Below, in pieces: positions 43,880 to 57,887 of a stretch of 64,000 nucleotides of DNA. A program made the translations under genes and the position numbers. How positions within the stretch are numbered: position 1 is the first letter of the stretch; every line of letters begins with the position of its first letter. This stretch comes from Bacteroidales bacterium. GTDB taxonomy: Bacteria; Bacteroidota; Bacteroidia; Bacteroidales; GCA-2748055. The notes beneath the pieces were generated by a model. That model had not been told where the DNA came from. It saw only the letters and a list, made by a program, of their open reading frames with translations, and ran no database searches. The stretch is taken from contig JARGFP010000021.1 in the NCBI GenBank assembly GCA_029210585.1, forward strand, positions 1-64,000. The letters are read 5' to 3'.

Positions 43880-46800
43880 ATGAGCGAAGAGGTCCTGCGG
43901 GCATTGATGGAATTGTTCGCCATCATCATCAAACAGGATGGCGGACTTTCAGAGCGTGAGAAATCCTATGTGCACAGATTCCTGGTACAACAGATCGGCA
44001 TTGAATCGGCACAGAAATATTTCGCCCTTTTCCTCGCTACCGCAAACTCCGATCAGGACAAAAAGCAGGATAACAAGAAACACCTGACCTCGGTTCTGGA
44101 TTCGGTAAAGATTCTGAAGATCGGAAAAAAGATCAGCAAGACCCTCAATCAGCAGCAGAAAGTGGTGGTGCTGATACGCGCCATCGAATTGATCAATACC
44201 GAATACAAGCTTACCGACCAGCGCCAGGAAATCATCAAAACCCTCGCTGATGTATTCCGGATCAACAGGGTTGAATACAAGAGTATGCTGAATTTTGCAA
44301 CCGGGCAGTTAACTGTTGCACTGCAGGATGCGCATATACTGGTGATTTCTCAGCGCTCCGGCACTGCTGAAGGGGATCATGTTGCGGCAGAGGGCAGCGC
44401 AGGTGATGAAAGTGCAGGAAAAGTCAGGAACAAACCTGATGCGGATGCAGCAGGGACCAAAGAAGAACCTGCACCGAAACGTATCCTGGTGGAAAGCCTC
44501 GACAGGCCGATCCATGTGCTGCGGGTCCCCTCCGTGGAGCTGTACTTTCTGAAATATGCAGGGAATCTCGAAATCCAGCTCAACGGCCATCCGTTGCATG
44601 TTGAAACGATCTACATCCTGGCAAATGGCAGCAGCATCAGGCTTCCTGTTGGTCAGCCGCTCTATTACAGCGACATCGTTTCGCGGTTCCTTTCGAACCG
44701 CAGTACGGTGAGGATCAGCCTCACAGCCCGGAAAATCTCCTATTCTTTCTCTCAGCACGTGAAGGGTCTCCAGGACATTACCTTTTCGGCTGAGCAGGGC
44801 AACCTGGTCGGGATCATGGGAGCCAGCGGCTCAGGCAAAACCACCCTGCTGAATGTGCTTTCAGGCGTATACACCCCTACCTCCGGTGAACTGTTCATCA
44901 ACAATACCGATCTTTTCAGGGAGCCGGAAAAATTACGCGGTATCATGGGATATGTCCCGCAGGACGATCTCCTGGTCGAGGAACTGACTGTATTTCAGAA
45001 TCTCTGGTACAATGCAAAGTTTTGTTTCAGCGACCTGCCTGATGAAAAAATCCGGGAGAAAGTCGACAACATGCTCGACCAGCTGGGTCTGCTGGAAAAA
45101 AAAGACCTGAAAGTGGGGTCGTTGATGAACAAGACCATTTCGGGCGGACAGCGAAAAAGGCTGAACATCGCCCTGGAACTGATCCGGGAACCTGCGATAC
45201 TGTTCCTGGACGAACCCACCTCGGGGCTCTCCTCCCGCGATTCCGAAAATGTAATAGACCTCCTCAGGCAACTGGCCATACGTGGAAAACTGGTATTCAA
45301 CGTGATCCACCAGCCCTCTTCCGAGCTGTATAAAATGTTCGACCAGGTGATTGTCCTGGACGAGGGTGGTCAGATGGTGTATTTTGGCAACCCGGTGGAG
45401 GCGGTGGTGTATTTCAGGAAGATCGACCAGCAGGTCAATTACGGGATCGGGGAATGCCCGGTGTGCGGGAACACCAATCCTGAGCAGATCTTCAATATCA
45501 TCGAGGCAAGGCAGGTGGATGAATTCGGAAATTACACCAGCCAGCGCAAGATCAGTCCGGAGAAGTGGCGCGAATATTTTGAAGCCTCAAGGAATACCGG
45601 GGCGCGTCCCTTGCCGAAGGAACCTCCCGCTTCAAATCTGAACGTCCCTGCCTGGCCCGGTCAGTTCCTCAACTACCTGAAAAGGGATTTCAGGTCCAGG
45701 ATCAGCAACCGGCAATACATCTTCCTGGTAGTGGCTGTTTCACCGCTGCTGGCAATCATTCTTTCCTATATCACGAGGTATATTGCAGATCCCGGGAGCC
45801 GTAATTATATTTTCAGGGACAATGAAAATATTCCCATCTATATCTTTATATCGATCATCGTGGCCCTGTTCCTGGGGCTGATCATGAGTGCAGAGGAGAT
45901 TTTTCGTGACCGCAAGATCCTGGTACGTGAGAAATTTCTGCACCTGAGCCGCTCCGCCTACCTGTCGTCCAAGATCATCAACATATTTCTGATGTCTGCC
46001 TTCCAGGCCCTGCTTTTTATTCTGATCGCGAACAACGTGCTCGGGGTCAGGTACATGACCTTTTACTACTGGTTTGCACTGTTCTCGGTGGCTGCATGCG
46101 CCAACCTGATCGGGTTGATCATCTCCTCTGCCTTCAATTCAGCAGTGACCATCTACATCCTGGTCCCTCTTGTGATGATCCCGATGATGGTCCTGAGCGG
46201 CGCCATGTTCAGCTTTGAGAAACTGAACCGTACGATCACCAGTGTCAACAAGGTACCGCTTGTTGCCGAGGCCATGCCTACCCGCTGGGCTTACGAAGCG
46301 CTGATGGTCAAGCAATTCAGGGACAACCCGTTCCAGGAAACCTTCTTTGAACTCGACCGTGAGATCAGCCGTACCAATTTCAGATCGGCATATTATATTC
46401 CGGTGCTGGAAGACCGCGTGGCCGCACTTTCGGAGGCAGTTACTGAAACAGGGAGTATCACCGGTCATGCCGATGCGCTTATAGTGCTGAAAAATGAGAT
46501 CCTGCGCGAACAGGATTCCCTGGGCATTTCAACATTCACCGCAGCAGATTTTACACCGGAAAAATTCAGCCGGGAAACTGTAACTGCAATCACAGAATTC
46601 CTTTCCGGGTTAAACGATCATTACCTGCGGAAGTATGCGACCGCCAGCAGGGTGAAGCAGAATATGCTCAGCCAGGTGATGCGGCAGGACCGGTCGCTGT
46701 ATTATTCAATGCTCAATAAATACCACAATGAAAGTATTTCTGAACATGTAAAAAAAATCTATGAGAAGAACAAGATCATCGCATCAGGTGGCAGGCTCTA

Positions 46801-47014
46801 CCAGCAGTCAGACCCGATATACCTGCTCCCCGAATCGGTACGATCCCATTTTTATGCCCCGTTAAAATATTTTTTCGGCACCTATGTGGATACCTACTGG
46901 TTCAACATGGCCATGATCTGGGTGCTCTCTGTCCTCTTTTACCTGGTGTTGTATTTCGACCTGTTGCGACGGTTGATCGCCATGCCGGTTTTCAGGAAAA
47001 AAAGCTACATTTGA
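43880..47014 (+). CDS. TerB-ABCG fusion transporter
   Basis: A 1044-residue half transporter. The N-terminal 145 residues form a helical TerB-like domain (ELFAIIIKQDGGLSEREKSYV), then a linker and a small domain, an ABCG ATPase (about 290-510) with Walker A GASGSGKTT (about 313), signature ISGGQRKRLNIA (about 419), Walker B ILFLDEPTSGLSS and H-loop IHQPSSELYK, a CPVCGN zinc-like knuckle, and an ABC2 membrane domain with about six helices (about 610-840). A long coiled insertion and a last membrane helix (about 1010-1035) end the chain. It may export a lipid or peptide under SiaC control; substrate unknown. Confidence 0.85.
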   Translation: MSEEVLRALMELFAIIIKQDGGLSEREKSYVHRFLVQQIGIESAQKYFALFLATANSDQDKKQDNKKHLTSVLDSVKILKIGKKISKTLNQQQKVVVLIRAIELINTEYKLTDQRQEIIKTLADVFRINRVEYKSMLNFATGQLTVALQDAHILVISQRSGTAEGDHVAAEGSAGDESAGKVRNKPDADAAGTKEEPAPKRILVESLDRPIHVLRVPSVELYFLKYAGNLEIQLNGHPLHVETIYILANGSSIRLPVGQPLYYSDIVSRFLSNRSTVRISLTARKISYSFSQHVKGLQDITFSAEQGNLVGIMGASGSGKTTLLNVLSGVYTPTSGELFINNTDLFREPEKLRGIMGYVPQDDLLVEELTVFQNLWYNAKFCFSDLPDEKIREKVDNMLDQLGLLEKKDLKVGSLMNKTISGGQRKRLNIALELIREPAILFLDEPTSGLSSRDSENVIDLLRQLAIRGKLVFNVIHQPSSELYKMFDQVIVLDEGGQMVYFGNPVEAVVYFRKIDQQVNYGIGECPVCGNTNPEQIFNIIEARQVDEFGNYTSQRKISPEKWREYFEASRNTGARPLPKEPPASNLNVPAWPGQFLNYLKRDFRSRISNRQYIFLVVAVSPLLAIILSYITRYIADPGSRNYIFRDNENIPIYIFISIIVALFLGLIMSAEEIFRDRKILVREKFLHLSRSAYLSSKIINIFLMSAFQALLFILIANNVLGVRYMTFYYWFALFSVAACANLIGLIISSAFNSAVTIYILVPLVMIPMMVLSGAMFSFEKLNRTITSVNKVPLVAEAMPTRWAYEALMVKQFRDNPFQETFFELDREISRTNFRSAYYIPVLEDRVAALSEAVTETGSITGHADALIVLKNEILREQDSLGISTFTAADFTPEKFSRETVTAITEFLSGLNDHYLRKYATASRVKQNMLSQVMRQDRSLYYSMLNKYHNESISEHVKKIYEKNKIIASGGRLYQQSDPIYLLPESVRSHFYAPLKYFFGTYVDTYWFNMAMIWVLSVLFYLVLYFDLLRRLIAMPVFRKKSYI

Positions 47015-47030
47015 AATAAACTAACTGAAT

Positions 47031-47924
47031 ATGAAACAAAGATCCATCGCACTTTTCCTGGTGATCTTGATGCTCGGTTCCTGCGGAAATCGTAAAAAAG
47101 AAACGCTCCCGGTATCCTATGAAGAACCTGATCCTGATGAACTGGTGGTATCCGACGAAGCAATGGACGAAGTGATTGAAAATATCGCCAGTCCAATTGA
47201 AGTGGCTTCTCTTCTGAATGATCTGAATGTTCCCTTTTCGGTTTCCTACCTTGCCGATCCGGACAAAATGTCCTCCTACGCAACCAACTACGAGATGGCC
47301 TATTACCTTGGGGCACTCAGTTCTGACCTGGGATACCTGAACATGTACAACAAAACCGGTTCGGCCATCAATTACCTGGGCACCATCAACAAGCTCACCG
47401 AAGCCCTTGATGTGGGTCAGTTCTTCGATTTCGTCAAGATGAAGCGACTGGCCACCGGGCAGAACACGCTGGATTCACTGCTGTTTGTTTCGATGAACAG
47501 CTATAACCAGATGGATGATTATCTGAAAGCCACCAGCCGCGGAAATCTCAGCGCGCTGATGGTCTCCGGGGTATGGATCGAGGGGTTGTATCTTGCCACC
47601 CAGGTATATGATAAATCGGCAGTGGAGGAGATTCGTGATGTGATCGGACAGCAGAAGCTGATACTGAACAACCTGCTGATCATCATGGAAAAATACAAGT
47701 CGGATGATTATTTCGCCGTGTTGCTTGCAGATTATTACCTGATCAAGGACCAGTTCGACAATGTGAAAATCACTTATGAGATCGGGGAACCCAAAACCGT
47801 GGAAGTTGACGGCATGCTGATGGTGATCCAGGACGAAAGCAGTTCCATTGATATCCCGGAGGAAACCCTGTCGGAGATCATAAAAGTGACTGAGCTGATT
47901 CGCAACAAACATTTAAACATCTGA
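47031..47924 (+). CDS. Helical lipoprotein of unknown function
   Basis: A 297-residue protein with a lipoprotein signal (LMLGSCGN, Cys in GSC) and a mostly helical, acidic mature part. Conserved-looking stretches include YEMAYYLGALSSDLGYLNMYNK and VSGVWIEGLYLATQV. No catalytic motif and no family I can name. It starts 16 bases after the ABC transporter gene and ends four before the next, so it should belong to the same transcription unit and may be the periplasmic partner of the transporter. Confidence 0.65.
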   Translation: MKQRSIALFLVILMLGSCGNRKKETLPVSYEEPDPDELVVSDEAMDEVIENIASPIEVASLLNDLNVPFSVSYLADPDKMSSYATNYEMAYYLGALSSDLGYLNMYNKTGSAINYLGTINKLTEALDVGQFFDFVKMKRLATGQNTLDSLLFVSMNSYNQMDDYLKATSRGNLSALMVSGVWIEGLYLATQVYDKSAVEEIRDVIGQQKLILNNLLIIMEKYKSDDYFAVLLADYYLIKDQFDNVKITYEIGEPKTVEVDGMLMVIQDESSSIDIPEETLSEIIKVTELIRNKHLNI

Positions 47925-47928
47925 TCCC

Positions 47929-48360
47929 ATGAGAACATTCTACAATATACTGGCCATTGTGATGTTTCTCGGGACAACAGGGTTTTTGTCACAGGATACA
48001 TCGGATGAAGTGATGGAGTGTGCTGACAAGGCCGGGAAATCGGCTGTCTACCTGAAAGACTTCCAGGTGGAATTGCCGGCTGCCGAACCGGGTGAACGTC
48101 CGCCCATGTTCCGACAGGCACTGGTACTGCGCGGAAATAATATTTACCGTTTCAATCTCTGCAATCAACAGGGCGAGGCCGTGATCAGGATCTATGACAG
48201 TTCCCGCATGTTGCTGTCCTCTTACGATACCGCCTCCGGGGAGGAATACAACCCCATCCAGTTCCTCTGCCAGAAAACCGGTCCGTACAACATTGTGATC
48301 ACCTTCAAAAACGGCACCGCCGGTGAGGCGATCGGGATCATGAGTCATGTGAAACGGTAG
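47929..48360 (+). CDS. Small exported protein of unknown function
   Basis: A 143-residue protein with a signal peptide (1-22) followed by a beta-rich mature part: RQALVLRGNNIYRFNLC, EAVIRIYDSSRMLLSSY and YNIVITFKNGTAGEAIGIM. Two Cys (NLCNQQ and LCQKTG) could form a disulfide. It follows the lipoprotein gene by four bases, and together they close the signalling block. Unrecognised family. Confidence 0.6.
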   Translation: MRTFYNILAIVMFLGTTGFLSQDTSDEVMECADKAGKSAVYLKDFQVELPAAEPGERPPMFRQALVLRGNNIYRFNLCNQQGEAVIRIYDSSRMLLSSYDTASGEEYNPIQFLCQKTGPYNIVITFKNGTAGEAIGIMSHVKR

Positions 48361-48504: not shown

Positions 48505-49548
48505 TCAGTGGCCCCCCATGAACTTCCTGATCCGCCAGCGCTGGAGAATACTCCACAACACAGCCCATTTATACCTTGCACCGGGCTTGAGCCCGAACAG
48601 GTAGAGGTGGCGGTTCAACTTCGTCCCGGGGCCCGGCAGTTCCGGTCCCAGGATCCGCTGCTCACAACGCGCTGCAAGCCTTTGCACTGCCTTGTTTTCT
48701 GAGACCAGCTCCCGGTATGGCTCCGGTACCTCCGCTGCAAACCAGCGTTCAGCCAGCAACAGGGCAATCCCGGCCATCCGCTCGAGTCCGAGGGAACGCA
48801 TTTTTTCAAGAATCTTTGCATGGTCGAGCTCCCACTGCTGCAGTGCCTCTGCCACATCGCGCAGCCAGAACAGCCTGAAAAACTGGTGCAGGCAGCCGTG
48901 GTACACCAGGTAGATGAAGGTGGTGGCCCGATCGAACACGACGAGCGCTTCGTTATGAAGTTCCACCCGTTCCGTCGCATCGCGGATCGCCGGTTCATCG
49001 GCACGCCGCAACAGTTCATGCACATAGATGCCGTAGTGCAACTCGATAAACATCCGCTGCTCCCGGTTGTAGAACCCGACATCCTTCTTGTACCGGGCGT
49101 AGATCCGCTCCTGCCGCGGGGTAAGCCTGCGCGGATAAGACTGGCTGTACCCGCAGCCTGTCAGCACACGGGCGGTCCGGTCTATATCGGCCCGGTTGAT
49201 CAACAGGTCGATATCGTTGCAATGACGCAGTCCCACATCCCCGTAAAGCATTTGTGCCAGCACCGAACCCTTCAGGGGAATGGCAACGACACCCTCCTGT
49301 TTCAGCAGTTGGATCAGTCGCGCCGTTTCGGCAGAGAGTTGCAACGAATGAAGGGTCTTTTGCTGCAACAGTTTTTTCCACTGTTCCTGCTGCTCCTCCG
49401 GAAGCTGCTCCCGCACCGCTGACGACAGAGGCATCAGGCGGTGTCGCTGAAACATCTGCAGCAGCCTGTCCGCATCGGTTCCCTCCGGCAGGGAGGTCAA
49501 CTCCCCCCGCAGTAAACGAAACAATACCTCTTGCTCTGTCGTGAACAT
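48505..49548 (-). CDS. Nucleotidyltransferase-family protein (NTP_transf_5 type)
   Basis: A 347-residue protein with the minimal nucleotidyltransferase motif KGSVLAQMLYGDVGLRHCNDIDLLI, where the two acids of NDID follow the GS pair. The C-terminal part is helical (about 180-345). In other species such proteins accompany RiPP, including lasso peptide, clusters and glycan clusters; pseudomycoidin has one. Here it is on the same strand as the cyclase, separated by a KilA-N gene. GC-rich codon use sets it apart from the AT-rich lasso genes, so membership of the lasso cluster is plausible but not certain. Confidence 0.7.
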   Translation of the reverse strand: MFTTEQEVLFRLLRGELTSLPEGTDADRLLQMFQRHRLMPLSSAVREQLPEEQQEQWKKLLQQKTLHSLQLSAETARLIQLLKQEGVVAIPLKGSVLAQMLYGDVGLRHCNDIDLLINRADIDRTARVLTGCGYSQSYPRRLTPRQERIYARYKKDVGFYNREQRMFIELHYGIYVHELLRRADEPAIRDATERVELHNEALVVFDRATTFIYLVYHGCLHQFFRLFWLRDVAEALQQWELDHAKILEKMRSLGLERMAGIALLLAERWFAAEVPEPYRELVSENKAVQRLAARCEQRILGPELPGPGTKLNRHLYLFGLKPGARYKWAVLWSILQRWRIRKFMGGH

Positions 49549-49668
49549 TCTTAATTTCGGTAATTTATCAATATATACTTTGCACTTGTGATTAGAATGG
49601 AGTATTCAGCTCTTTGAAAAGTGTATTGGTGGCCAGAAGCAAAACTCTTTCCATTAGATGAAAGATTA

Positions 49669-50445
49669 TCATTTAGTGAGATTTTTCAGATTTGAATTAT
49701 TAACCAAAGAAGTCATTTGAGTAATGGCGATCTGGTTAAGCTGCTTTAAACGTTGAGATTGGTTTAAGTCGTGCCTGATCAATAAGGCATTAATGCTTTC
49801 AAGATTAGATAGGACCACCAGTTGTTCCAGGGTTGCATAATCCCGCATATTGCCTTTAGCCTCCTGATTTTCCTCTCGCCAATTTGAGGCTGTCGTGCCA
49901 AAGAGAGCCATATTAAGTAAATCAGCTTCCGAAGCATATACCGACGAAGTTTGCTTTGCTGTGAGTTTACCAGGGATTAATCTTTCTTTAATGGCATCGG
50001 TGTGAATAATATAATTAACTTTTGCCAGGGTCCGTTGCAAGTTCCAATCGAGTTGATGGCGATCGTTTTCTTGCTGTTTTAATCGTTTGTATTCCTGAAT
50101 AAGGTATACTTTAAACTCGGCACTTATCCACATCCCAAATTCCAAGGCTATGTCAACATGTGCATATGTACCACCATAACGACCTGCTTTTGCCTTTACG
50201 CCTATCGCATTGGTCTTTTCGGTCCACTCTTTAACACTGATTTTGTAATTATTCAGACCGGCTTGATTTCTAATTGTGGCAAATTCGCCATAATTAAAAT
50301 CAGGATTATTAACAGATTCCCATACGCCAAGAAATTCAACTGTATTACGGTTTCTTAGCCAATCTGAAATAAAAAAATCACCATCTTTTTCCTGAATAAC
50401 TGCTATTCGGGTTCCTTTAACATCAATTTCTTTATTCTTTGTCAT
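49669..50445 (-). CDS. KilA-N domain protein, phage-type
   Basis: A 258-residue protein starting with a KilA-N domain (about 10-125): KGTRIAVIQEKDGDFFISDWLRN and GGTYAHVDIALEFGMWISAEFK. KilA-N is a DNA-binding domain found in phages, large viruses and mobile regions. The rest is helical. It is AT-rich and sits between the nucleotidyltransferase gene and the cyclase gene, on the same strand. It may be a late insertion in the cluster. No integrase or repeat boundaries are seen around it. Confidence 0.85.
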   Translation of the reverse strand: MTKNKEIDVKGTRIAVIQEKDGDFFISDWLRNRNTVEFLGVWESVNNPDFNYGEFATIRNQAGLNNYKISVKEWTEKTNAIGVKAKAGRYGGTYAHVDIALEFGMWISAEFKVYLIQEYKRLKQQENDRHQLDWNLQRTLAKVNYIIHTDAIKERLIPGKLTAKQTSSVYASEADLLNMALFGTTASNWREENQEAKGNMRDYATLEQLVVLSNLESINALLIRHDLNQSQRLKQLNQIAITQMTSLVNNSNLKNLTK

Positions 50446-50527
50446 AGCGCCATTTTAACATTCCAAATTAATCCTTTTCAGCATCTTGCACAAAAAATAT
50501 ATGTTTTCGCTGCCTCTGTACATATTC

Positions 50528-52417
50528 CTACCACCTGATCCCCGACCGGAACGTTCCCTCCCGTTCCATCTCCTGCAACAGCAAAATCTGCAGTGAGTTG
50601 AGAAACCCTACAGGATAAACTGGTTGCCTGAGGTTCCTGCGATTTTCAATTTTGCTCTGCCATTCAAGCATCCTTGCATAATCAAGATAATGATATCGAT
50701 TTTTTTCCTGCGACCTTTTTATAAGTTTCTCGATTGAATTATGATCTTCAATTATTCGTAATTGAAGTGACGGCAAGGTATTTCCAAATTTATCTTTCCG
50801 GGTCCTTATGCTTTCAGGGACTTTACCTTTCAACACCTCCCTGTAAATATACCTGTCTTCACCAGGCCTTGTTTTAAATTGTCTTGGCAATTGGTAATAA
50901 AATTCAATCAAATCCAGATCCAGTAAAGGATATAGATACTCGATATTAAAATAGCGTGCAGTATGATATGAAAATTCAAGGCGTTGCGAAAAAGCAGATG
51001 AGCTGAGACGCATCAACATATTCTCTTTCATACTTGATCCATTTTGTCCCATTCTCAGCTTTTTTGTCCGGTCTTTTAGTAGATTTGGATCTTTATAGAA
51101 CGAACTGACAGCAAAATTTTCCAGTCTTTTATTCACGATCTTGTTTGATATGCCTGGTTCATTGAGGAGCCACCTTCTGCTGACAGGAAAAACTTTCAAC
51201 AGTATGTATTTCAGGTTTTTTCTCAGGCTAGCCGTATTATTATTATGTAGAATAAAATTCCGCAAATCAGCCCACTCTGCTTCTGCAATCAACTCCTGAT
51301 AGAGGCCTGAATTCTTAGCTGTAATACCCTCATCACCTCCATGCCCTGAAAAAAGATAGCGTATATCCATATCTTTCACCGATTTCAACAACTGGTCAGA
51401 AAGCATATGATAGCTGCCTTGAGAGGGTCCTGACTGAATAAATATATCATTGCTCAATGAGTTCAAAACACCACTTCCCTCACCGGTAATGATAGAGTGC
51501 TCATCTGTACCCAAATAATCACAAACTTCCATTGAAAACTTTCTTTCATCTTTATAGGGAAACAAAGTGTTATGAAAAGATTCAGGCAAACCATGAGAAA
51601 ATGCGTGGAAAGGAACACCAGCATCCTGACATGCCATGTATAAGAGGCTTGAGATACCAGAAGAATCCAAACCCCCACTTAATTCAGAGCCTACAGAATC
51701 TAACGAAGACATTCGCTTCAATACAGCATTTTGAAGAAATTGAAAAAAAACTTTTACTTCATCTCCATGATATCCAACCGTAGAATCAGGTGTGCTCACC
51801 AAGTGCCAATACCTGGATTTTTTAATGTGAGTATTGTAATACAAGCGCTCTGCAGGCTCCAGTTTTCGAATGTTTTTGTAATAAGTTCGGAAAGATTCAG
51901 ATCGCGTTGCAGTAATGCAATCTGACAAATACATCTCATCAATTTCAAAAGAATCAATTTTTGTCAACGAGGCTATTTCTGTGGAGAAGGCAATAAAAGA
52001 AGTTGTTTCAAAATAATACAATGGTCTGGCTCCCAGCTGATCCCTTATCAGTACCAATTGATCATCAAACTTATCATAAACCGCAGCAACAAAATCTCCC
52101 CGCAATAATTGTGGATTATTAACAATCCTTTCAATTTGATGATAAGTAAAGCCTATATTTCTTTCGCTTTCTTGTTCTTTTCCGGATTCATCAAATCGAG
52201 CATTAATTGCTCCAAGGTATCGTTCATTTTCTATAATCGTACGCTCCTCTTCATCAATCAATCCGGATAATTTTTCAGCTGCCAATGCAAATCTATTAAC
52301 ATATGATCTTTGCATCTCCATAGATGCATCATAAGCGACAAGCATATTTTCAAGCAATCTTTTATCAACTTTTTGCTGCTTCTTCATTAATACCCCACAA
52401 AAAGATCGTATTGGCAT
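50528..52417 (-). CDS. Lasso peptide cyclase (asparagine-synthetase-like)
   Basis: A 629-residue asparagine synthetase homologue that should activate the side-chain acid of the precursor with ATP and close the isopeptide ring. The synthetase domain has the pyrophosphate loop ELSGGLDSSGIS (SGGLDS at 247-252), YLFSGHGGDEG and a C-terminal YPLLDLDLIEFYYQLP. The N-terminal part keeps the amidotransferase-like fold (LLRGDFVAAVYD, LGARPLYY) but does not begin with the Cys2 needed for glutaminase activity, as in lasso cyclases. The start at 52417 (MPIRSFCGVL) is preferred over the one at 52492, which would overlap the divergent kinase promoter. AT-rich. Confidence 0.88.
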   Translation of the reverse strand: MPIRSFCGVLMKKQQKVDKRLLENMLVAYDASMEMQRSYVNRFALAAEKLSGLIDEEERTIIENERYLGAINARFDESGKEQESERNIGFTYHQIERIVNNPQLLRGDFVAAVYDKFDDQLVLIRDQLGARPLYYFETTSFIAFSTEIASLTKIDSFEIDEMYLSDCITATRSESFRTYYKNIRKLEPAERLYYNTHIKKSRYWHLVSTPDSTVGYHGDEVKVFFQFLQNAVLKRMSSLDSVGSELSGGLDSSGISSLLYMACQDAGVPFHAFSHGLPESFHNTLFPYKDERKFSMEVCDYLGTDEHSIITGEGSGVLNSLSNDIFIQSGPSQGSYHMLSDQLLKSVKDMDIRYLFSGHGGDEGITAKNSGLYQELIAEAEWADLRNFILHNNNTASLRKNLKYILLKVFPVSRRWLLNEPGISNKIVNKRLENFAVSSFYKDPNLLKDRTKKLRMGQNGSSMKENMLMRLSSSAFSQRLEFSYHTARYFNIEYLYPLLDLDLIEFYYQLPRQFKTRPGEDRYIYREVLKGKVPESIRTRKDKFGNTLPSLQLRIIEDHNSIEKLIKRSQEKNRYHYLDYARMLEWQSKIENRRNLRQPVYPVGFLNSLQILLLQEMEREGTFRSGIRW

Positions 52418-52479
52418 AGCTAATTTTATCTTGTAAATCTGGTCACTCCGCACATATTCCTGAAAGCTTAAAATTACCT

Positions 52480-52487
52480 TATCTTTG
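52480..52487 (+). promoter_or_regulatory. -7 box of the lasso kinase-sulfotransferase unit
   Basis: TATCTTTG matches TAnnTTTG exactly. Transcription would start near 52494, which excludes the TTG at 52485 as the kinase start codon and favours the TTG at 52500. Confidence 0.55.
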
Positions 52488-52499
52488 CACAAAAAACAA

Positions 52500-53405
52500 T
52501 TGATCCATAATTATAAATACCTGGCATTCGGACTCAAAATACAATCTGAATTATGTTTTCCAGAATTACACTCTTCTGAATTTAAAGATCCGGATGTCCA
52601 AATCAGCTTTGGTAAAAATCCCAAAGAATTGACCGATATCAAATCTGTCGGGGTGCTTTTTCAGGCAAAAAAGAATGATTTTCTTTTCAGACTTGATACT
52701 GTTGGCTCCTTTAGGGTTCAAAATGGTAACAGCATCATTATTGAACCTTCCAAAAGTGCAACAGAAGAAGAGGTACGGTTATTCCTTCTTGGATCAGCCA
52801 TCGGGGCATTGTTACAACAGCTTGACCTGTTCACATTTCATGGGAGCACAGTTATAAAAGACGATATTGCTTATGTTATAGGAGGGAAAAGTGGCACAGG
52901 AAAATCAAGTCTTGCAGCCACGCTGTTAAACAAAGGTTTTCAATTACTGGCAGATGATATTTCAATTATAAAAAACATAAAAGGAATACCGATGGTTTAC
53001 CCAGGAATTCCACATTTAAAATTATGGGCTGATGTCATGGAAGCCTTGAAGCTGGATATAGAATCATATCCAAAGGTAAGGCCCCAAATTCTTAAATACC
53101 GAAAACCCGTCCTGCATAAATTCTCTAATAGTCCTCATAAGCTTGGATCTATCGTAATACTCAACACAAAAAACACATTAGATTTTGAAATAGAAGAAAT
53201 CAAAGGATCTAAAAAATTTGAACTGCTCAAAGAAAATACATACAGGTACCGATTCCTTGAGGGACTTGAAAAAACAAACGAACATTTTCATGCGGTAACC
53301 TTACTGGCTGGTTCATCTAATCTCTTTCTTATAAAGCGCCCAGGCACACCGTTACAATTATTTGACCTTGCAGATTTCTTTATCAAAAATATCGTTGATT
53401 CCTGA
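52500..53405 (+). CDS. HPr-kinase-like lasso peptide kinase
   Basis: A roughly 301-residue protein of the HprK-like group. It has FTFHGSTVI, the Walker A GGKSGTGKSSLAA, the second acidic motif LLADDIS, and MVYPGIPHLKLW, the order seen in HPr kinases and in lasso tailoring kinases such as that of paeninodin, which phosphorylates the C-terminal Ser of the peptide. The precursor encoded here ends in Ser. The N-terminus is uncertain: no ATG is available, and the TTG at 52500 is chosen from the promoter position. The sulfotransferase gene follows by 19 bases. Confidence 0.85.
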   Translation: MIHNYKYLAFGLKIQSELCFPELHSSEFKDPDVQISFGKNPKELTDIKSVGVLFQAKKNDFLFRLDTVGSFRVQNGNSIIIEPSKSATEEEVRLFLLGSAIGALLQQLDLFTFHGSTVIKDDIAYVIGGKSGTGKSSLAATLLNKGFQLLADDISIIKNIKGIPMVYPGIPHLKLWADVMEALKLDIESYPKVRPQILKYRKPVLHKFSNSPHKLGSIVILNTKNTLDFEIEEIKGSKKFELLKENTYRYRFLEGLEKTNEHFHAVTLLAGSSNLFLIKRPGTPLQLFDLADFFIKNIVDS

Positions 53406-53424
53406 GCCTGTTAATAATCACCCG

Positions 53425-54273
53425 ATGGAAAGAGACAACAGGAAAATAGTGTGGATTGCATCATACCCGAAATCCGGGAACACATGGTTCAGACTTGTGC
53501 TTTCACATCTTTTGGAAAAAAATGATATTCCACTAAATATTAACAATATATATTCTGCTTCAATTGCCAGTTCAAGAGTTCACTTTGATAATATTTCCGG
53601 CGTTTCCGGTTCCGATCTCACCTCTGAGGAAATCGATGCAATCCGTCCGGAAATATATAGGCGCATGGCAGTGGAATCTGAAGACCTGATCTTTAAAAAA
53701 GTCCATGATGCATGGACGATCAATGAGGCTGGAAAACAAATCTTCCCGACAGATATTACAAAGGCCGTCGTATACATGATCAGAAACCCGCTTGATGTTG
53801 CAGTTTCATATGCATTTCATTCCGGCACTAACTTTGCAAACATTATTGAGGATATGAGCAACAGTAAACATGCGTTGGCTGATAAACCCGGAAAGCTACA
53901 CAACCAACTCAGACAAAAACTTCTGAATTGGTCAGAACATGTAATAAGCTGGATTGATTCGTCCGGGATGCCGGTTAAAGTTATCCGATATGAAGATCTG
54001 ATAGAAAATCCTTTTAAGGAATTTAGTACCGCATTCAACTTTATCGGGATGAATTATGAAGCTGAGGACCTCATTCGGGCAATAAAAAATTCTGAATTTA
54101 GCAAAGTATCCCAACAGGAAGAAAAATTCGGATTCAAGGAAAAGCCTTTACAAATGAGCCTGTTTTTCAGAAAAGGAGAACCGGGTGATTGGAAGAACCA
54201 TCTTAGCGTTCAACTAGCGGATGAAATAAGGAAAAAGCACAGTGATATAATGAAAAGATTCAATTATTTGTGA
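53425..54273 (+). CDS. PAPS-dependent sulfotransferase
   Basis: A 282-residue sulfotransferase. The 5'-phosphosulfate loop is SYPKSGNTWFR (about 13-23), the 3'-phosphate site VVYMIRNPLDVAVSY (about 115-129), and the C-terminal RKGEPGDWKNHL matches the conserved RxGxxGDWKNxF motif. It transfers sulfate from PAPS to a hydroxyl. The ATG at 53425 is preferred over the start at 53362 inside the kinase gene. Between the kinase and the RRE gene, on the same strand, it is the natural candidate for decorating the lasso peptide at Tyr12, Thr or Ser, or the phosphate-bearing tail. Confidence 0.9.
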   Translation: MERDNRKIVWIASYPKSGNTWFRLVLSHLLEKNDIPLNINNIYSASIASSRVHFDNISGVSGSDLTSEEIDAIRPEIYRRMAVESEDLIFKKVHDAWTINEAGKQIFPTDITKAVVYMIRNPLDVAVSYAFHSGTNFANIIEDMSNSKHALADKPGKLHNQLRQKLLNWSEHVISWIDSSGMPVKVIRYEDLIENPFKEFSTAFNFIGMNYEAEDLIRAIKNSEFSKVSQQEEKFGFKEKPLQMSLFFRKGEPGDWKNHLSVQLADEIRKKHSDIMKRFNYL

Positions 54274-54311
54274 TAATCTAACATTTAAGACAATTACTTA
54301 CGTATTTTTTG

Positions 54312-54319
54312 TAAATTTG
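54312..54319 (+). promoter_or_regulatory. -7 box of the RRE-B2-precursor unit
   Basis: TAAATTTG is an exact TAnnTTTG match, 32 bases before the ATG at 54351. It suggests the RRE, B2 and precursor genes have their own transcript besides read-through from the kinase unit. Confidence 0.55.
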
Positions 54320-54350
54320 ATTGGGAGGAAAAGAAGCGCGAAAGGAAACC

Positions 54351-54653
54351 ATGAAGAAAAATAAAACAGAAAAGTTATCTGTTAATTCTGTTGTGCAAAG
54401 GAATCCTGCTCAGGAATTCTCCAAAATTGATGAAGAAATCATCATGCTCAATGTAAACAAAGGTGAGTATTATGCGTTAAACGACGTTGCCTCCAGAATT
54501 TGGGAAATGATCGACACACCTGTTCAAGTAAACGACCTTTTAAACAAATTGATTGAAGAGTATGAAATTGACACGCAAACATGCCAGCAAGATACGCTCA
54601 GATGCCTGGAAGATTTCAGAAATAAGTCAATCATTATCATTGAGAATGAATAA
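54351..54653 (+). CDS. PqqD-like RiPP recognition element (lasso B1 protein)
   Basis: A 100-residue PqqD-fold protein: VVQRNPAQEFSKIDEEIIMLNVNKGEYYALNDVASRIW contains the beta-strands that bind the leader, followed by the helical bundle (VNDLLNKLIEEYEID). In lasso systems the stand-alone B1 protein binds the leader and presents it to the B2 protease. It overlaps the B2 gene by eight bases. The ATG at 54351 is preferred over the upstream TTG at 54321, which lies next to the promoter box. Confidence 0.9.
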   Translation: MKKNKTEKLSVNSVVQRNPAQEFSKIDEEIIMLNVNKGEYYALNDVASRIWEMIDTPVQVNDLLNKLIEEYEIDTQTCQQDTLRCLEDFRNKSIIIIENE

Positions 54654-55032
54654 AAAGCTTTGGAAATACAGGAAACTGATCTGGCTGGTTGTAATTGTTT
54701 TTACTAAATACCAGATATTGAGAAGTTTTACAAGTGATAAAGCTTTTTTAAATTCAATTCGCCGGGAAAAAGAATCTTGTCGTTTACCTGATGAATCGAA
54801 CATGCAACCTTTTAAAAACTACTCCCGTCTAATTGATATTATAATCAATAAATTAGCTCCCTCATCAACCTGTGTCATCCGAAGTTTGGTAAAAAGGGAT
54901 GTTTTATCAAATTATGGATTAAAAACAGAGGTGTTTTTTGGTTTGTTAAGAAAAGATAATGAAATTCGTGCTCATGCCTGGCTATCAACTGAGCACGATC
55001 ATGGCTATTCAAAAGTATATAAAGTATCATGA
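54646..55032 (+). CDS. Lasso peptide B2 leader peptidase (transglutaminase-like)
   Basis: A 128-residue protein of the B2 type, the cysteine protease that removes the leader. The likely catalytic residues are C76 in STCVIRSLV, H110 in AHAWL and an Asp in TEHDHG (D118 is the candidate). The N-terminal 70 residues are helical with a hydrophobic stretch, as in other B2 proteins. It overlaps the B1 gene upstream and the precursor gene downstream by four bases (ATGA), so the three are translationally coupled. Confidence 0.9.
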   Translation: MNKKLWKYRKLIWLVVIVFTKYQILRSFTSDKAFLNSIRREKESCRLPDESNMQPFKNYSRLIDIIINKLAPSSTCVIRSLVKRDVLSNYGLKTEVFFGLLRKDNEIRAHAWLSTEHDHGYSKVYKVS

Positions 55033-55163
55033 AGCATAGGAAAGAAACTATAAAGAAAAAATGGAATCAACCAAAATTGGAATCAATTCCCTTTAAAAAT
55101 ACACTCACTGGAGGTTTCGTGGACACTCTTGCTGAAGATGCCACGTATTCACTCCCGTCTTAA
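55029..55163 (+). CDS. Lasso peptide precursor (A gene), 44 residues
   Basis: This short gene begins with ATGA overlapping the B2 stop and ends with TAA at 55161-55163. The leader is basic and shows the conserved lasso pattern W-x-x-P-x-L-x-x-I-x-F-x-x-x-T-x-G: WNQPKLESIPFKNTLTG, where Thr sits at -2. The predicted core after TG is GFVDTLAEDATYSLPS. Gly1 would supply the amine, Glu8 the acid for an eight-residue ring (Asp9 would give nine); residues 9-16 would form loop and tail. The C-terminal Ser and Tyr12 are candidate sites for the kinase and sulfotransferase. Placing the precursor last after B2 is unusual compared with A-C-B order. Mass and modification are predictions. Confidence 0.88.
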   Translation: MKHRKETIKKKWNQPKLESIPFKNTLTGGFVDTLAEDATYSLPS

Positions 55164-55174
55164 AACCCAAATTT

Positions 55175-57829
55175 ATGAAATACCTAATTGGATTCATTAC
55201 TGCATTTATATTCCTGGCTGGTCTAAATGGTCAGGGTATTATTTCATCAGGAGCGATAAATGGGAATGGTGATATTACCATCATTCAATCAGAATCTTCA
55301 TCTAATGGAGATATCTATGTATTTGGGCATTTCACTGGCACAATTGACTACCCCTCTGTTCTGGGCACCTCTTTAGGTGGTCGTGATTATTTCATTGCAA
55401 AAATTGACAGTTCACTTAAAGTACAATGGTTAAGTCAACTATCCAGTCCGTTAAGTGTTTATGTATACGGCGGAATAACAGTAGATGCAAATAATGATGT
55501 GTATGTTACGGGGGGATTCAGAAATTATATCAGGGTCAGTGATGCAGACAGCATATTCTCCAGTGGTGCATTTGATACGTTCCTCGCAAAATATGATGCT
55601 TCCGGTACACCACTTTGGTTAAAAGCTGTTGGTGAAGGAGGTCGTAATGAAAGACCTAATGCCTTATCTGTTGATCTGAGCGGCGACCTTCTCATCGGAG
55701 CTTTCTTTTCAGATAGCATTCAATTCGATGATAATCTCACATTATACAGTGATGATGGCATAGATGATTATTTCTATGGAAAGTTTGATCCCAATACAGG
55801 GGATAGAATCTGGGCCAGACAGATCATTGGTATTAACAATAACCTCTCGGGTCGAATATTCGATATAGTGGCCACATCAGATTCATATTACATGACCGGT
55901 CCTTACGCAGATTCAATAGGGTTTGAAAATGATACCATCGTATCCGTCAACAATAATTATGACGTGCATTTAATTAAGACCGATCTGGATGGAAATGTGA
56001 ACTGGGTTCGCTCAATTAAAGGTGATCTGGCAGACAATTCCTGGTCCTTGACCACGGATGAGAATGATAATGTGTATATAGCTGGCTGGTATGATACGCC
56101 TGCCGGACTTATAGTAGATTCAACTGATTCAGATGAGGTTACTTTCCCCGGCAGTGATGGAGATGAGCAACTGAACGTTTTTATAGCCAAATACGATACG
56201 CAAGGAACACTCCAATGGATAAGAGCTGGTGACCGTGCAAATCATGGTGGAATTGTTGATGAAAAAATATTTGATATAGAAATTTTTGGCGGGCAGTTAA
56301 ATGTCTGTGGCTATTATGAAAATGTATTCACTTGGGGAGCCAACACCTTAACAAGTAATGGCCCTGGTGACTTCAATATGTTTGTTGCAAGTATGACCTT
56401 TAACGGTGAGTACCGTAGCGCTGTCAGCTACTCAAGACAGGAAACAAAAAATGGTTATGAGGCTTCGAGAACACTATTTCAAAGAGGAGATGAGCTTTAT
56501 GTTGTCATTGAATCAACCAGCACTAGACTCGTGTATCAGGATAGTATTTACGATAATACAGACGGCTTATTGATGGTAGCTATCCTTCAAATAGGATGCC
56601 TTCCTTTAGCAATAGGCAATACAGTAGTAACTGATGTGGTAGGATGTAATGGGGATAGTAAAGGTTCTATTCAAATTGTTGTATCAGCCGATTCTTCGGG
56701 CTGGGGGTCACCCTATCTATTTTCTATTGACAATGGGAGCACATACCAGGAAAGTCCGTTCTTTGATGAATTACCTGCCGGAACATATAATCCTGTAATT
56801 TATGATAGCAGGGGGTGTACTTTCGCTGGCGATCCGATTGTGATTGATCAGCCTGATCCAATTGTTATAGATACAAATTCTGAGAGTGTTCTTTGTTTTG
56901 GTGACAATTCAGGATCAATTACGATCAATGTAACAGGAGGAGTGTCACCCTACCAGTACTCATCTGATGGTGGTACCACATTCCAGGCAGCTTCAACTTT
57001 CTCAGCCCTCACATTCGGAGATTATCCTATCCAGGTACTTGACAGCGATGCCTGTCTTGCAGAGGGAGATACGATTGAAATCACTCAACCCGAATCACCA
57101 CTCACCATTGCTCTTGTATCAACAACCGATGTACCATGCAATGGAAAGACGAATGGAGCGATTGAGGTCAGTGCTGATGGTGGAACTAAACCATACGAAT
57201 ATTCCATCGACGGTTCCAACTACCAGGCAGAAGCAACTCTTGGTTCACTTTCGGCAGGCACATATACACCTTTGGTATTGGATGCAAATGATTGTGTAAC
57301 GCAATTAGACGCCGTTGTAACTATTGATGAACCGAAACCTCTTACAATATCCATCGATAGTATCAAATCCAAACAAGGAAATGACCTTGGATTAATAATT
57401 GCCACTGCATCAGGTGAAACAGGAAATTATACTTTTTCTATTGATCCGGCTATTGGAAATCAGGATGAACCTGGTAAATTTACTAATCTTGATAAAGGTA
57501 TTTACACTGTCACGGTGACAGATGATTTATGTAATAGTACTGATTCTGAAAGTTCTATTGAGATTGTAGGTTTCTTTAACTTAGAATACATCCCAGCCTC
57601 CATCTACCCGAACCCGTCCTCCGGGATGGTCACGGTGGAATTCACTACCGACAAGCAGGAGATGACGCTGGAGATTTTTAGTATCGACGGAAGAAGCGTG
57701 ATGCACCGACAGGTGTACAGCGCTGGCGGGCAGGTTAGGGAAACACTGGATCTTTCAGGGCTCGACAAAGGCATGTATATGCTCCGGATCGACCAGCAGA
57801 CCCTCACCAGTGGTGTTGTACTGAAGTAG
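55175..57829 (+). CDS. T9SS surface adhesin with SBBP and SprB-like repeats
   Basis: An 884-residue exported protein: signal peptide (1-19), beta-propeller-like SBBP repeats (about 30-470, motifs such as DVYVTGGF and YIAGWYD), three SprB-like repeats (about 490-745, each starting CNGDSKGSI, CFGDNSGSI or CNGKTNGAI and ending near GTY-P), and a T9SS type A sorting domain (about 800-884, SIYPNPSSGMVTVEF, MYMLRID). SprB repeats occur in gliding adhesins. It starts 12 bases after the precursor gene but is probably a separate functional unit. Composition changes sharply near 57,590, at the start of the sorting domain. Confidence 0.85.
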   Translation: MKYLIGFITAFIFLAGLNGQGIISSGAINGNGDITIIQSESSSNGDIYVFGHFTGTIDYPSVLGTSLGGRDYFIAKIDSSLKVQWLSQLSSPLSVYVYGGITVDANNDVYVTGGFRNYIRVSDADSIFSSGAFDTFLAKYDASGTPLWLKAVGEGGRNERPNALSVDLSGDLLIGAFFSDSIQFDDNLTLYSDDGIDDYFYGKFDPNTGDRIWARQIIGINNNLSGRIFDIVATSDSYYMTGPYADSIGFENDTIVSVNNNYDVHLIKTDLDGNVNWVRSIKGDLADNSWSLTTDENDNVYIAGWYDTPAGLIVDSTDSDEVTFPGSDGDEQLNVFIAKYDTQGTLQWIRAGDRANHGGIVDEKIFDIEIFGGQLNVCGYYENVFTWGANTLTSNGPGDFNMFVASMTFNGEYRSAVSYSRQETKNGYEASRTLFQRGDELYVVIESTSTRLVYQDSIYDNTDGLLMVAILQIGCLPLAIGNTVVTDVVGCNGDSKGSIQIVVSADSSGWGSPYLFSIDNGSTYQESPFFDELPAGTYNPVIYDSRGCTFAGDPIVIDQPDPIVIDTNSESVLCFGDNSGSITINVTGGVSPYQYSSDGGTTFQAASTFSALTFGDYPIQVLDSDACLAEGDTIEITQPESPLTIALVSTTDVPCNGKTNGAIEVSADGGTKPYEYSIDGSNYQAEATLGSLSAGTYTPLVLDANDCVTQLDAVVTIDEPKPLTISIDSIKSKQGNDLGLIIATASGETGNYTFSIDPAIGNQDEPGKFTNLDKGIYTVTVTDDLCNSTDSESSIEIVGFFNLEYIPASIYPNPSSGMVTVEFTTDKQEMTLEIFSIDGRSVMHRQVYSAGGQVRETLDLSGLDKGMYMLRIDQQTLTSGVVLK

Positions 57830-57856: not shown

Positions 57857-57887
57857 AGCGCGGAGCCACAAGCTTCGCTCTTTTTTT
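57857..57887 (+). terminator. Rho-independent terminator after the adhesin gene
   Basis: AGCGCGGAGC (57857-57866) pairs with GCTTCGCTCT (57872-57881) with one mismatch and one G-U pair around CACAA, followed by seven T (57881-57887). It lies 28 bases past the stop at 57829 and would close the transcript from the lasso cluster or the adhesin. Confidence 0.85.

Follow-up and report, generated by a model that had tools for sequence, protein, structure and literature searches.

A predicted lasso peptide cluster with a kinase-sulfotransferase pair and an adjoining gene for a predicted type IX secretion cargo in a Bacteroidales genome

Introduction

The lasso peptide cluster analysed here occupies positions 48505-55163 of the window, the 64,000-nucleotide stretch that opens contig JARGFP010000021.1 of a Bacteroidales draft genome (GCA_029210585.1; 116 contigs, 99% complete). 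Its closest described counterparts are the paeninodin-type clusters (Paenibacillus dendritiformis; ThcoK and SyanK), with which it has in common a lasso cyclase (C), a stand-alone RRE (recognition element, B1), a leader peptidase (B2), a kinase (K) with the H-K-D-D residues and a precursor (A) with a C-terminal Ser and a Y/W-x-x-P-x-L leader. Unlike these clusters, the window adds a sulfotransferase (S), has a precursor scoring under the paeninodin model cut-off, is devoid of any lasso-type exporter that our search could find, and continues into a gene, P, for a protein with a type IX secretion system (T9SS) C-terminal domain. A Priestia plasmid cluster annotated as "paeninodin family" reads C-A-K-B1-B2-ABC (ATP-binding cassette) transporter, its K being annotated as "aldolase". 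The pseudomycoidin (psm) cluster, as presented in the available part of PMC9266682, shares K and an annotated nucleotidyltransferase with the window; the window differs in having S and in that the gene of its nucleotidyltransferase-like protein (N) is unlike C to A in GC content and is separated from them by a KilA-N gene.

Kinase, sulfotransferase and nucleotidyltransferase genes have already been noted in lasso clusters in the accessible portions of PMC8498205 (citing Zhu 2016c) and PMC4289311. The Firmicutes and anaerobe clusters described there resemble the window, by description, in combining kinase and sulfotransferase genes, and those portions describe no P. The abstract of PMC7533575 reports complete lasso clusters of the rumen in Firmicutes only. 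Our searches of an open-access library listed no characterised sulfated lasso peptide, and the accessible sections of PMC12325987, PMC10978704 and PMC8776678 contain nothing on such peptides. A search of that library for lasso peptides joined to type IX secretion gave no paper; PMC10352776, as far as its text was available, mentions lasso twice and neither sulfotransferases nor type IX.

Two further systems bear on individual genes. S has the fold and the PAPS (3'-phosphoadenosine-5'-phosphosulfate) motifs of the glycopeptide sulfotransferases Teg12, Teg14 and StaL and of the cytosolic sulfotransferases (SULTs), which are its nearest solved relatives by sequence; it differs from them in an identity of 18-24% in the structure alignments listed and in an acceptor that is predicted only. 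P has the SprB repeats and T9SS C-terminal domain of the SprB/SprF gliding adhesin pair, and a PorP/SprF gene follows P in one comparison locus, L039 (L-numbers denote comparison loci from other genomes or contigs, G-numbers genomes). Unlike that pair, P carries a beta-propeller part at its N-terminal end, and its gene follows that of a lasso precursor.

Results and Discussion

The Locus Groups with Lasso Clusters

Open reading frame (ORF), Pfam and NCBIfam profile scans located the six named proteins and precursor A at 48505-55163, where a first-pass annotation of this DNA had placed a cyclase, a kinase, a sulfotransferase, an RRE, a B2 peptidase, a precursor and a nucleotidyltransferase. The genes, their conserved residues, their order and the cyclase tree are matters of direct observation. 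C, B1, B2 and A had been proposed to form a complete lasso set, a proposal upheld by the domain matches, by the leader motif of A (W-x-x-P-x-L, here WNQPKL) and by the cyclase tree. In this tree (60 rows, including 37 cluster cyclases), 12 rows starting with MCG and four others make up a 16-row asparagine-synthetase clade with a support of 100, inside which none of the 37 cluster cyclases falls. The lasso cyclase rows do not form one clade, and seven unlabelled rows stand among them, two being the same genes as lasso rows. C of the window pairs with a second copy from its own genome (support 97). We rejected a primary asparagine synthetase as the identity of C, since the tree, a check named in the first-pass annotation, places C among lasso-cluster cyclases and outside the synthetase clade. 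In B2, Cys77 and His111, which correspond to the catalytic residues of these peptidases, are invariant in 13 sequences. By its genes and phylogeny, the locus is a real lasso cluster.

The second copy lies on contig C91 of the source genome (L032:42-3595) as another C-K-S arrangement, with a GC content of 52-55% and with S cut by the contig end. Its kinase is 60% identical to K of the window. Two such clusters in the source genome are therefore probable.

Kinase and Sulfotransferase Form a Recurrent Pair

An alignment of 28 kinases showed residues H119, G139, K140 and D157 of K to be invariant and D158 to be nearly so. The available part of PMC9266682 reports a His-Lys-Asp-Asp motif in lasso kinases; the residues found here agree with it, and K thus classifies as an HprK-like lasso kinase. 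The alignment and the sequence of A, which ends in LPS, support the kinase motif and the C-terminal Ser. A C-terminal Ser is found in 38 of 46 loci holding both genes (K+S+) and in 6 of 16 loci holding the kinase without the sulfotransferase (K+S-). As for S, the sequences PKSGNTWxR and RNPxD and residues K93 and H95 are invariant among 14 sulfotransferases; enzymes of this type hold PAPS through such motifs and use the histidine in catalysis. The AlphaFold2 (AF2) model of S (predicted local distance difference test score, pLDDT, 92) matches SULT and Teg12 structures. Together with the Pfam match (Table 1), these features support a PAPS-type sulfotransferase.

Genomes were scanned with the sulfotransferase alignment, and the counts that follow rest on the best 80 loci. 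In 75 of them S is immediately preceded, on its own strand, by K, and C, B1 or B2 is also near in 68 of the 80. The titles of these loci include Bacteroidales, Acidobacteria, Chloroflexi, Verrucomicrobia, Proteobacteria, Actinomycetes and others, mostly metagenome-assembled genomes. Seen from the kinase, the association is looser: among strong-K loci brought in by K or B2, S stands behind K in 8 of the 26 in one set (L041-L071) and in 20 of the 37 in another (L152-L191). The second set leans towards S, since the later kinase sets were found with a query alignment made up mostly of kinases of S-holding clusters, and partly in genomes first reached through S. Comparison of the two kinds of count indicates that K occurs without S, yet only 5 of the best 80 S loci are without an adjacent K. 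The system is uncommon: K turned up in 15 of the 295 genomes sampled from the class, and S in 6 of the 296 sampled from the phylum, with weaker tandem copies in three of these six. Tandem S-type sulfotransferase genes at weaker score were seen in G344, G392 and G396, which belong to one family.

Kinase and sulfotransferase are thus a recurrent module, in Bacteroidota and beyond. The first-pass annotation had singled out their combination as unusual, a view that gives way before these 75 loci and the earlier printed mentions cited above; that the combination might be unique to this genome was rejected on its recurrence across other loci. Recurrence of the same set in other genomes also indicates that the gene set is not due to chance.

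Precursor Peptide and Leader Cleavage

Precursor A has the sequence MKHRKETIKKKWNQPKLESIPFKNTLTGGFVDTLAEDATYSLPS, the core of which is probably GFVDTLAEDATYSLPS or GGFVDTLAEDATYSLPS. The core GFVDTLAEDATYSLPS follows from a Thr at position -2 and a canonical ring closed on Glu8 or Asp9, the cut falling at TG/GFVDTLAE. In many Bacteroidales relatives, T-x precedes GG, which would favour a core starting GGFVDTLAED, with Glu9 and without Thr at -2. With the usual leader spacing, which takes the Thr at W+13 as residue -2, positions 7-9 of the window core hold no acid and a Glu stands at 10, as is also the case in L074 and L079. The cleavage site of A is, on these patterns, ambiguous.

Precursors were called blind to Tyr, with an aromatic-x-x-P-x-hydrophobic motif, a Thr and an acid at 7-9 as requirements; loci such as L041, L074, L079, L152 and L203 failed these requirements and are absent from the 46 K+S+ loci. 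An acid at 7-9 is present in 63 of 78 candidate precursors, some of the 15 without it being probably spurious. The candidates at L041:10936-11109, L074:10762-10914 and L079:3678-3806 and those of L152 and L185 have a Thr at -2 and their first usable acid at core position 10-12, which makes them candidates for larger rings or for a shifted cut. A ring size of 10 as a new lasso class (window, L074, L079) was considered; we make no such claim, since a shifted cut would account for the pattern equally well. Our search of the open-access literature listed no lasso peptide with a ten-residue ring; the novelty of Metanodin, according to the part of PMC12670498 available, is its N-terminal Asn, not its ring size. 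Plasmid relatives of A sought by tblastn gave a best E value of 0.08, taken as chance. One further candidate (L046:12090-12269) has no Thr ahead of the core and an Ile at the possible -2 position, and in L043 the precursor is directly followed by a 228-aa ORF that resembles, by eye, a sulfotransferase of another family.

Proposed Pathway

The pathway that we propose would run as follows. B1 would bind the WNQPKL leader, B2 would cut it off, and C would close the ring between the N-terminal Gly and a Glu; K would then phosphorylate the C-terminal Ser, and S would sulfate the Tyr that closely follows the ring (EDATYS), so that the tail of the product would be strongly anionic. The calculated monoisotopic mass of the lasso form is 1666.773 for core GFVDTLAEDATYSLPS and 1723.794 for core GGFVDTLAEDATYSLPS; these values become 1746.739 and 1803.760 with a phosphate, 1746.729 and 1803.751 with a sulfate, and 1826.696 and 1883.717 with the two groups together. 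P, a surface beta-propeller protein predicted to be exported by the T9SS, comes from the same gene run and would stand where other clusters have an ABC exporter. We infer leader cleavage, ring closure and Ser phosphorylation from characterised homologues, whereas the Tyr as sulfate acceptor and the part played by P are put forward with less assurance. Phosphate on the product is likely and sulfate, a prediction from the genes, is plausible. On balance we lean towards the whole of this reading: a lasso cluster in which K phosphorylates Ser, S sulfates Tyr and P serves the peptide. Should K and S both act on the peptide, it would bear phosphate and sulfate together, and with a pair that recurs so widely this chemistry would be shared by many phyla and be no single-genome curiosity. 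If P truly belongs to the system, lasso peptides would be linked to type IX secretion, and P would suggest how exporter-free clusters deliver or tolerate their product.

Several findings weigh against this reading. The lasso product is a prediction from the genes. All four NCBIfam lasso models score under their curated cut-offs: C gives 189 bits with NF033535 (cut-off 525) versus 161.1 with the asparagine synthase model TIGR01536; B1 gives 73.9 bits with NF033536 (cut-off 80); B2 gives 31 bits (cut-off 33); and the paeninodin family model NF033524 matches only the leader part of A, residues 9-19, with 15.5 bits (cut-off 27). We read these scores as a sign of divergence, which counts against a simple filing of the cluster. 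To them are to be added the ring left without an acid at 7-9 if the Thr at W+13 sits at -2; five loci of the order (L042, L048, L097, L135 and L150) in which A has no adjacent P; 21 of the 46 K+S+ loci without Tyr in the called tail; the nominal character of the Tyr test given below, its p value rising to 0.09 both for W-type leaders only and for Tyr anywhere in the core; the independent pairs on the kinase tree, of which only two are supported, too few to decide on a Tyr-S association; and the failure to find an APS (adenosine-5'-phosphosulfate) kinase in the source genome, where the sole match (21 bits) is a P-loop within a protein that we take to be the signal recognition particle protein Ffh.

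Gene P as a Possible Replacement for the Exporter

In P, an N-terminal beta-propeller part is joined to SprB repeats and a C-terminal T9SS domain; such domains are also present in relatives. The C-terminal domain matches TIGR04183 with 43.3 bits, above the cut-off of 23, besides the Pfam match in Table 1; the N-terminus, read by eye, is signal-like with a Gln behind it. Residues 1-491, which hold the propeller, were modelled by AF2 with a pLDDT of 81. The best match of the fold in the PDB is the Friedel-Crafts enzyme CylK (TM score 0.65-0.67 on the query, 21-22% identity), a likeness that we read as a shared beta-propeller.

The start of P lies between -26 and +44 nt from the stop codon of A in 14 loci (window, L035-L040, L074-L079 and L083), three of whose P genes run off contig ends. 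L083 is titled Calditrichia; the other 13 are in the order or titled Bacteroidales. The adjacency is seen in at least three gene orders, the commonest being N-C / K-S-B1-B2-A-P; in L038, B1-B2-A-P lies opposite to K-S-C-N, and L039 reads C-A-P-PorP/SprF. Matches to the propeller part were obtained in 15 loci, comprising 13 of 115 K+S+ loci plus L039 and L083, versus none of 42 K+S- loci; one of the latter, L155, matches the SprB repeats only. In L097, P is on the other side of C. Around S in L072, L073 and L086 (titled Bacteroidales) and L080 (titled Bacteroidetes), the available sequence contains no A, P or exporter.

ABC exporters of two lasso plasmid clusters served as queries in a search for lasso-type exporters, in which a match had to reach E 1e-20 and 250 or more aligned residues. 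None was found in the window between 42001 and 62000, and the available sequence of the 15 P loci gave none, versus 25 among the 102 remaining K+S+ loci (p 0.04, Fisher test). All four of the A-without-P loci L042, L048, L135 and L150 have an exporter, and L097 has a weaker ABC match. Several P loci end at contig edges, so that a more distant exporter is conceivable there. To the left of the cluster lies a large ABC-type transporter gene (43880-47014), which has a relative in L036, a syntenic locus, and which the exporter queries did not match.

From this distribution, P may replace the exporter, and it would most likely serve the mature peptide outside the cell by binding, display or self-protection, which we advance more tentatively than the lasso assignment. 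In its fullest form, this would be a type IX secretion-coupled lasso system of Bacteroidales, in which a phosphorylated and sulfated peptide would be produced along with a surface protein of its own, P, which would stand in for the ABC exporter and carry, display or receive the peptide outside the cell; in this form we consider the idea doubtful. Gene P goes unmentioned in the first-pass annotation and is, we think, the most interesting part of the locus.

Alternatively, P could be unrelated to the peptide, an old neighbour of purD in front of which a lasso cluster was inserted. We think this rather less than probable, yet it deserves to be taken seriously: ten of the 15 loci that hold P have purD behind it (window, L035, L036, L074-L079 and L097), and the flanking genes at 47031-48360 have relatives in L036, L097, L074 and L077. 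Shared descent of one locus does explain part of the A-P pattern, as these ten loci indicate. However, L039, the clearest A-P case outside the purD context, shows no purD in the 1.2 kb remaining behind P, and the opposed arrangement of L038, the tight spacing in the 14 loci and the lack of lasso-type exporters at P loci speak for a tie between P and the peptide.

Acceptor of the Sulfate

A Tyr is present in the tail of 25 of the 46 K+S+ loci and of 4 of the 16 K+S- loci (one-sided Fisher p 0.04, no tree correction). Tyr makes up 7.5% of the tail residues in the former and 2.7% in the latter. A Tyr at most five positions past the ring acid occurs in 15 of 23 Bacteroidota-type S-holding cores, 12 of 37 other K+S+ cores and 3 of 16 K+S- cores. 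The 46, 16, 115 and 42 loci on which these and the above counts are based include near relatives (e.g., L175/L176/L205, L043/L149, L128/L129 and L070/L154), and only 7 of the 16 K+S- loci have a W-type leader. We grade this evidence for Tyr sulfation as suggestive only; the Ser fits well as the target of K. In the window, the tail Tyr is the likely acceptor of S. Across the family, Tyr is not the sole acceptor, given the K+S+ loci without a tail Tyr.

One may therefore ask whether phosphorylation proceeds here on Ser as in paeninodin while S sulfates a Ser or Thr of the tail, a sugar or phosphate on the terminal Ser, or another molecule altogether. S is kept in 21 of 46 K+S+ loci without a tail Tyr, and S could act on the product of K, its neighbour in nearly all of the best 80 loci. 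Moreover, the N-type enzyme of pseudomycoidin is reported, in the part of PMC9266682 available, to add a hexose to the phosphorylated Ser. Against such an acceptor, 9 of the 11 rows of the kinase clade to which the window belongs (modest support, 84) hold S together with a tail Tyr. By sequence, Teg12 and SULT1 enzymes are among the closest solved sulfotransferases, and their acceptors are phenols. We regard a non-Tyr acceptor as possible and rather unlikely for this cluster, and retain Tyr sulfation as the working proposal.

PAPS Supply and Integrity of the Locus

A strong APS kinase match was obtained in 48 of 49 S-holding genomes (the 49 including that of L134, which has no K beside S) and, at E 1e-20, in 78 of the 149 genomes covered from the order; E. 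coli, used as a control, has an APS kinase. The one exception among the 49 is the source genome, which has CysD and a CysN-like gene, on contigs C94 (L197:7818-10049) and C36 (L192). PAPS supply in this host is presumed, an APS kinase having been sought in the draft genome and not found.

This absence, the KilA-N gene lying between C and N and the second C-K-S copy stopping short at a contig edge would all fit a decaying or silent locus, in which PAPS synthesis was lost, a KilA-N gene inserted and the second copy broken. Nevertheless, every reading frame is open, the conserved residues are intact and what interrupts the C91 copy is the edge of its contig rather than a stop codon, all of which makes decay improbable. 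As for an asparagine-synthetase-like amide ligase that would modify a peptide or another substrate without forming a lasso, the sub-cut-off model scores and the ambiguous ring position are in its favour, but the joint presence of the four genes A, B1, B2 and C, the leader motif and the position of C in the cyclase tree render it most improbable.

Layout of the Locus

The features of the locus are collected in Table 1. The ATG starts considered likely, with codons checked in the sequence, are at 52417 for C, 53425 for S, 54351 for B1 and 54646 for B2; the mechanical ORF of C extends beyond this start, to 52492, and the start codon of K is uncertain (TTG). B1 and B2 overlap by 8 nt and B2 and A by 4 nt, and P begins 11 nt past the stop codon of A. 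From these overlaps and the short A-P gap, K-S-B1-B2-A-P is an apparent single unit, pointing away from C and N, which appears to continue beyond 55163 into the T9SS-protein gene P.

Table 1. Features of the cluster and its surroundings (window positions)
Feature	Coordinates	Strand	Match or characteristic
N: NTP_transf_5 nucleotidyltransferase-like protein, 347 aa	48505..49548	-	PF14907 157.6 bits
KilA-N domain protein between N and C	49669..50445	-	PF04383 59.9 bits
C: lasso cyclase, 629 aa from ATG	50528..52417	-	PF00733 114.1 bits, partial GATase_7 match; SGGLDS
K: HprK-like kinase	52485..53405	+	PF07475 31.6 bits, under curated 33.3
S: PAPS-type sulfotransferase	53425..54273	+	PF00685 91 bits
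B1: stand-alone PqqD-like RRE	54351..54653	+	PF05402 65.8 bits, above cut-off
B2: leader peptidase	54646..55032	+	PF13471 33.1 bits, above cut-off
A: precursor peptide, 44 aa	55029..55163	+	leader motif W-x-x-P-x-L
P: exported beta-propeller/SprB-repeat protein, T9SS C-terminal domain	55175..57829	+	PF18962 55.3 bits

The GC content is 58.5% in N, 33-39% from C to A and 46.7% in the whole window, and the contrast between N and the C-to-A segment points to a mosaic cluster. In N, residues K92, G93, D111, D113, H216 and D230 are invariant among 23 sequences; N matched none of the solved structures. N lies beside C on the same strand in L035, L037, L038, L040, L072 and L074-L078; in the window it is on the strand of C, with the KilA-N gene separating the two. 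The available sequence of L036, a cluster from the same family, contains no match to N. N is possibly a further tail-modifying enzyme. The KilA-N gene has no relative in the other loci searched and is probably an insertion, outside the pathway.

No tRNA was found in the window, and an Rfam scan of it gave no match. Promoter-like sites in the window number 28, versus 25.9 in shuffled sequences, and terminator-like sites 11, versus 7.4; among the latter, one falls behind P (57860-57878) and another inside the start of P (55212-55236). Little weight is given to any of these sites.

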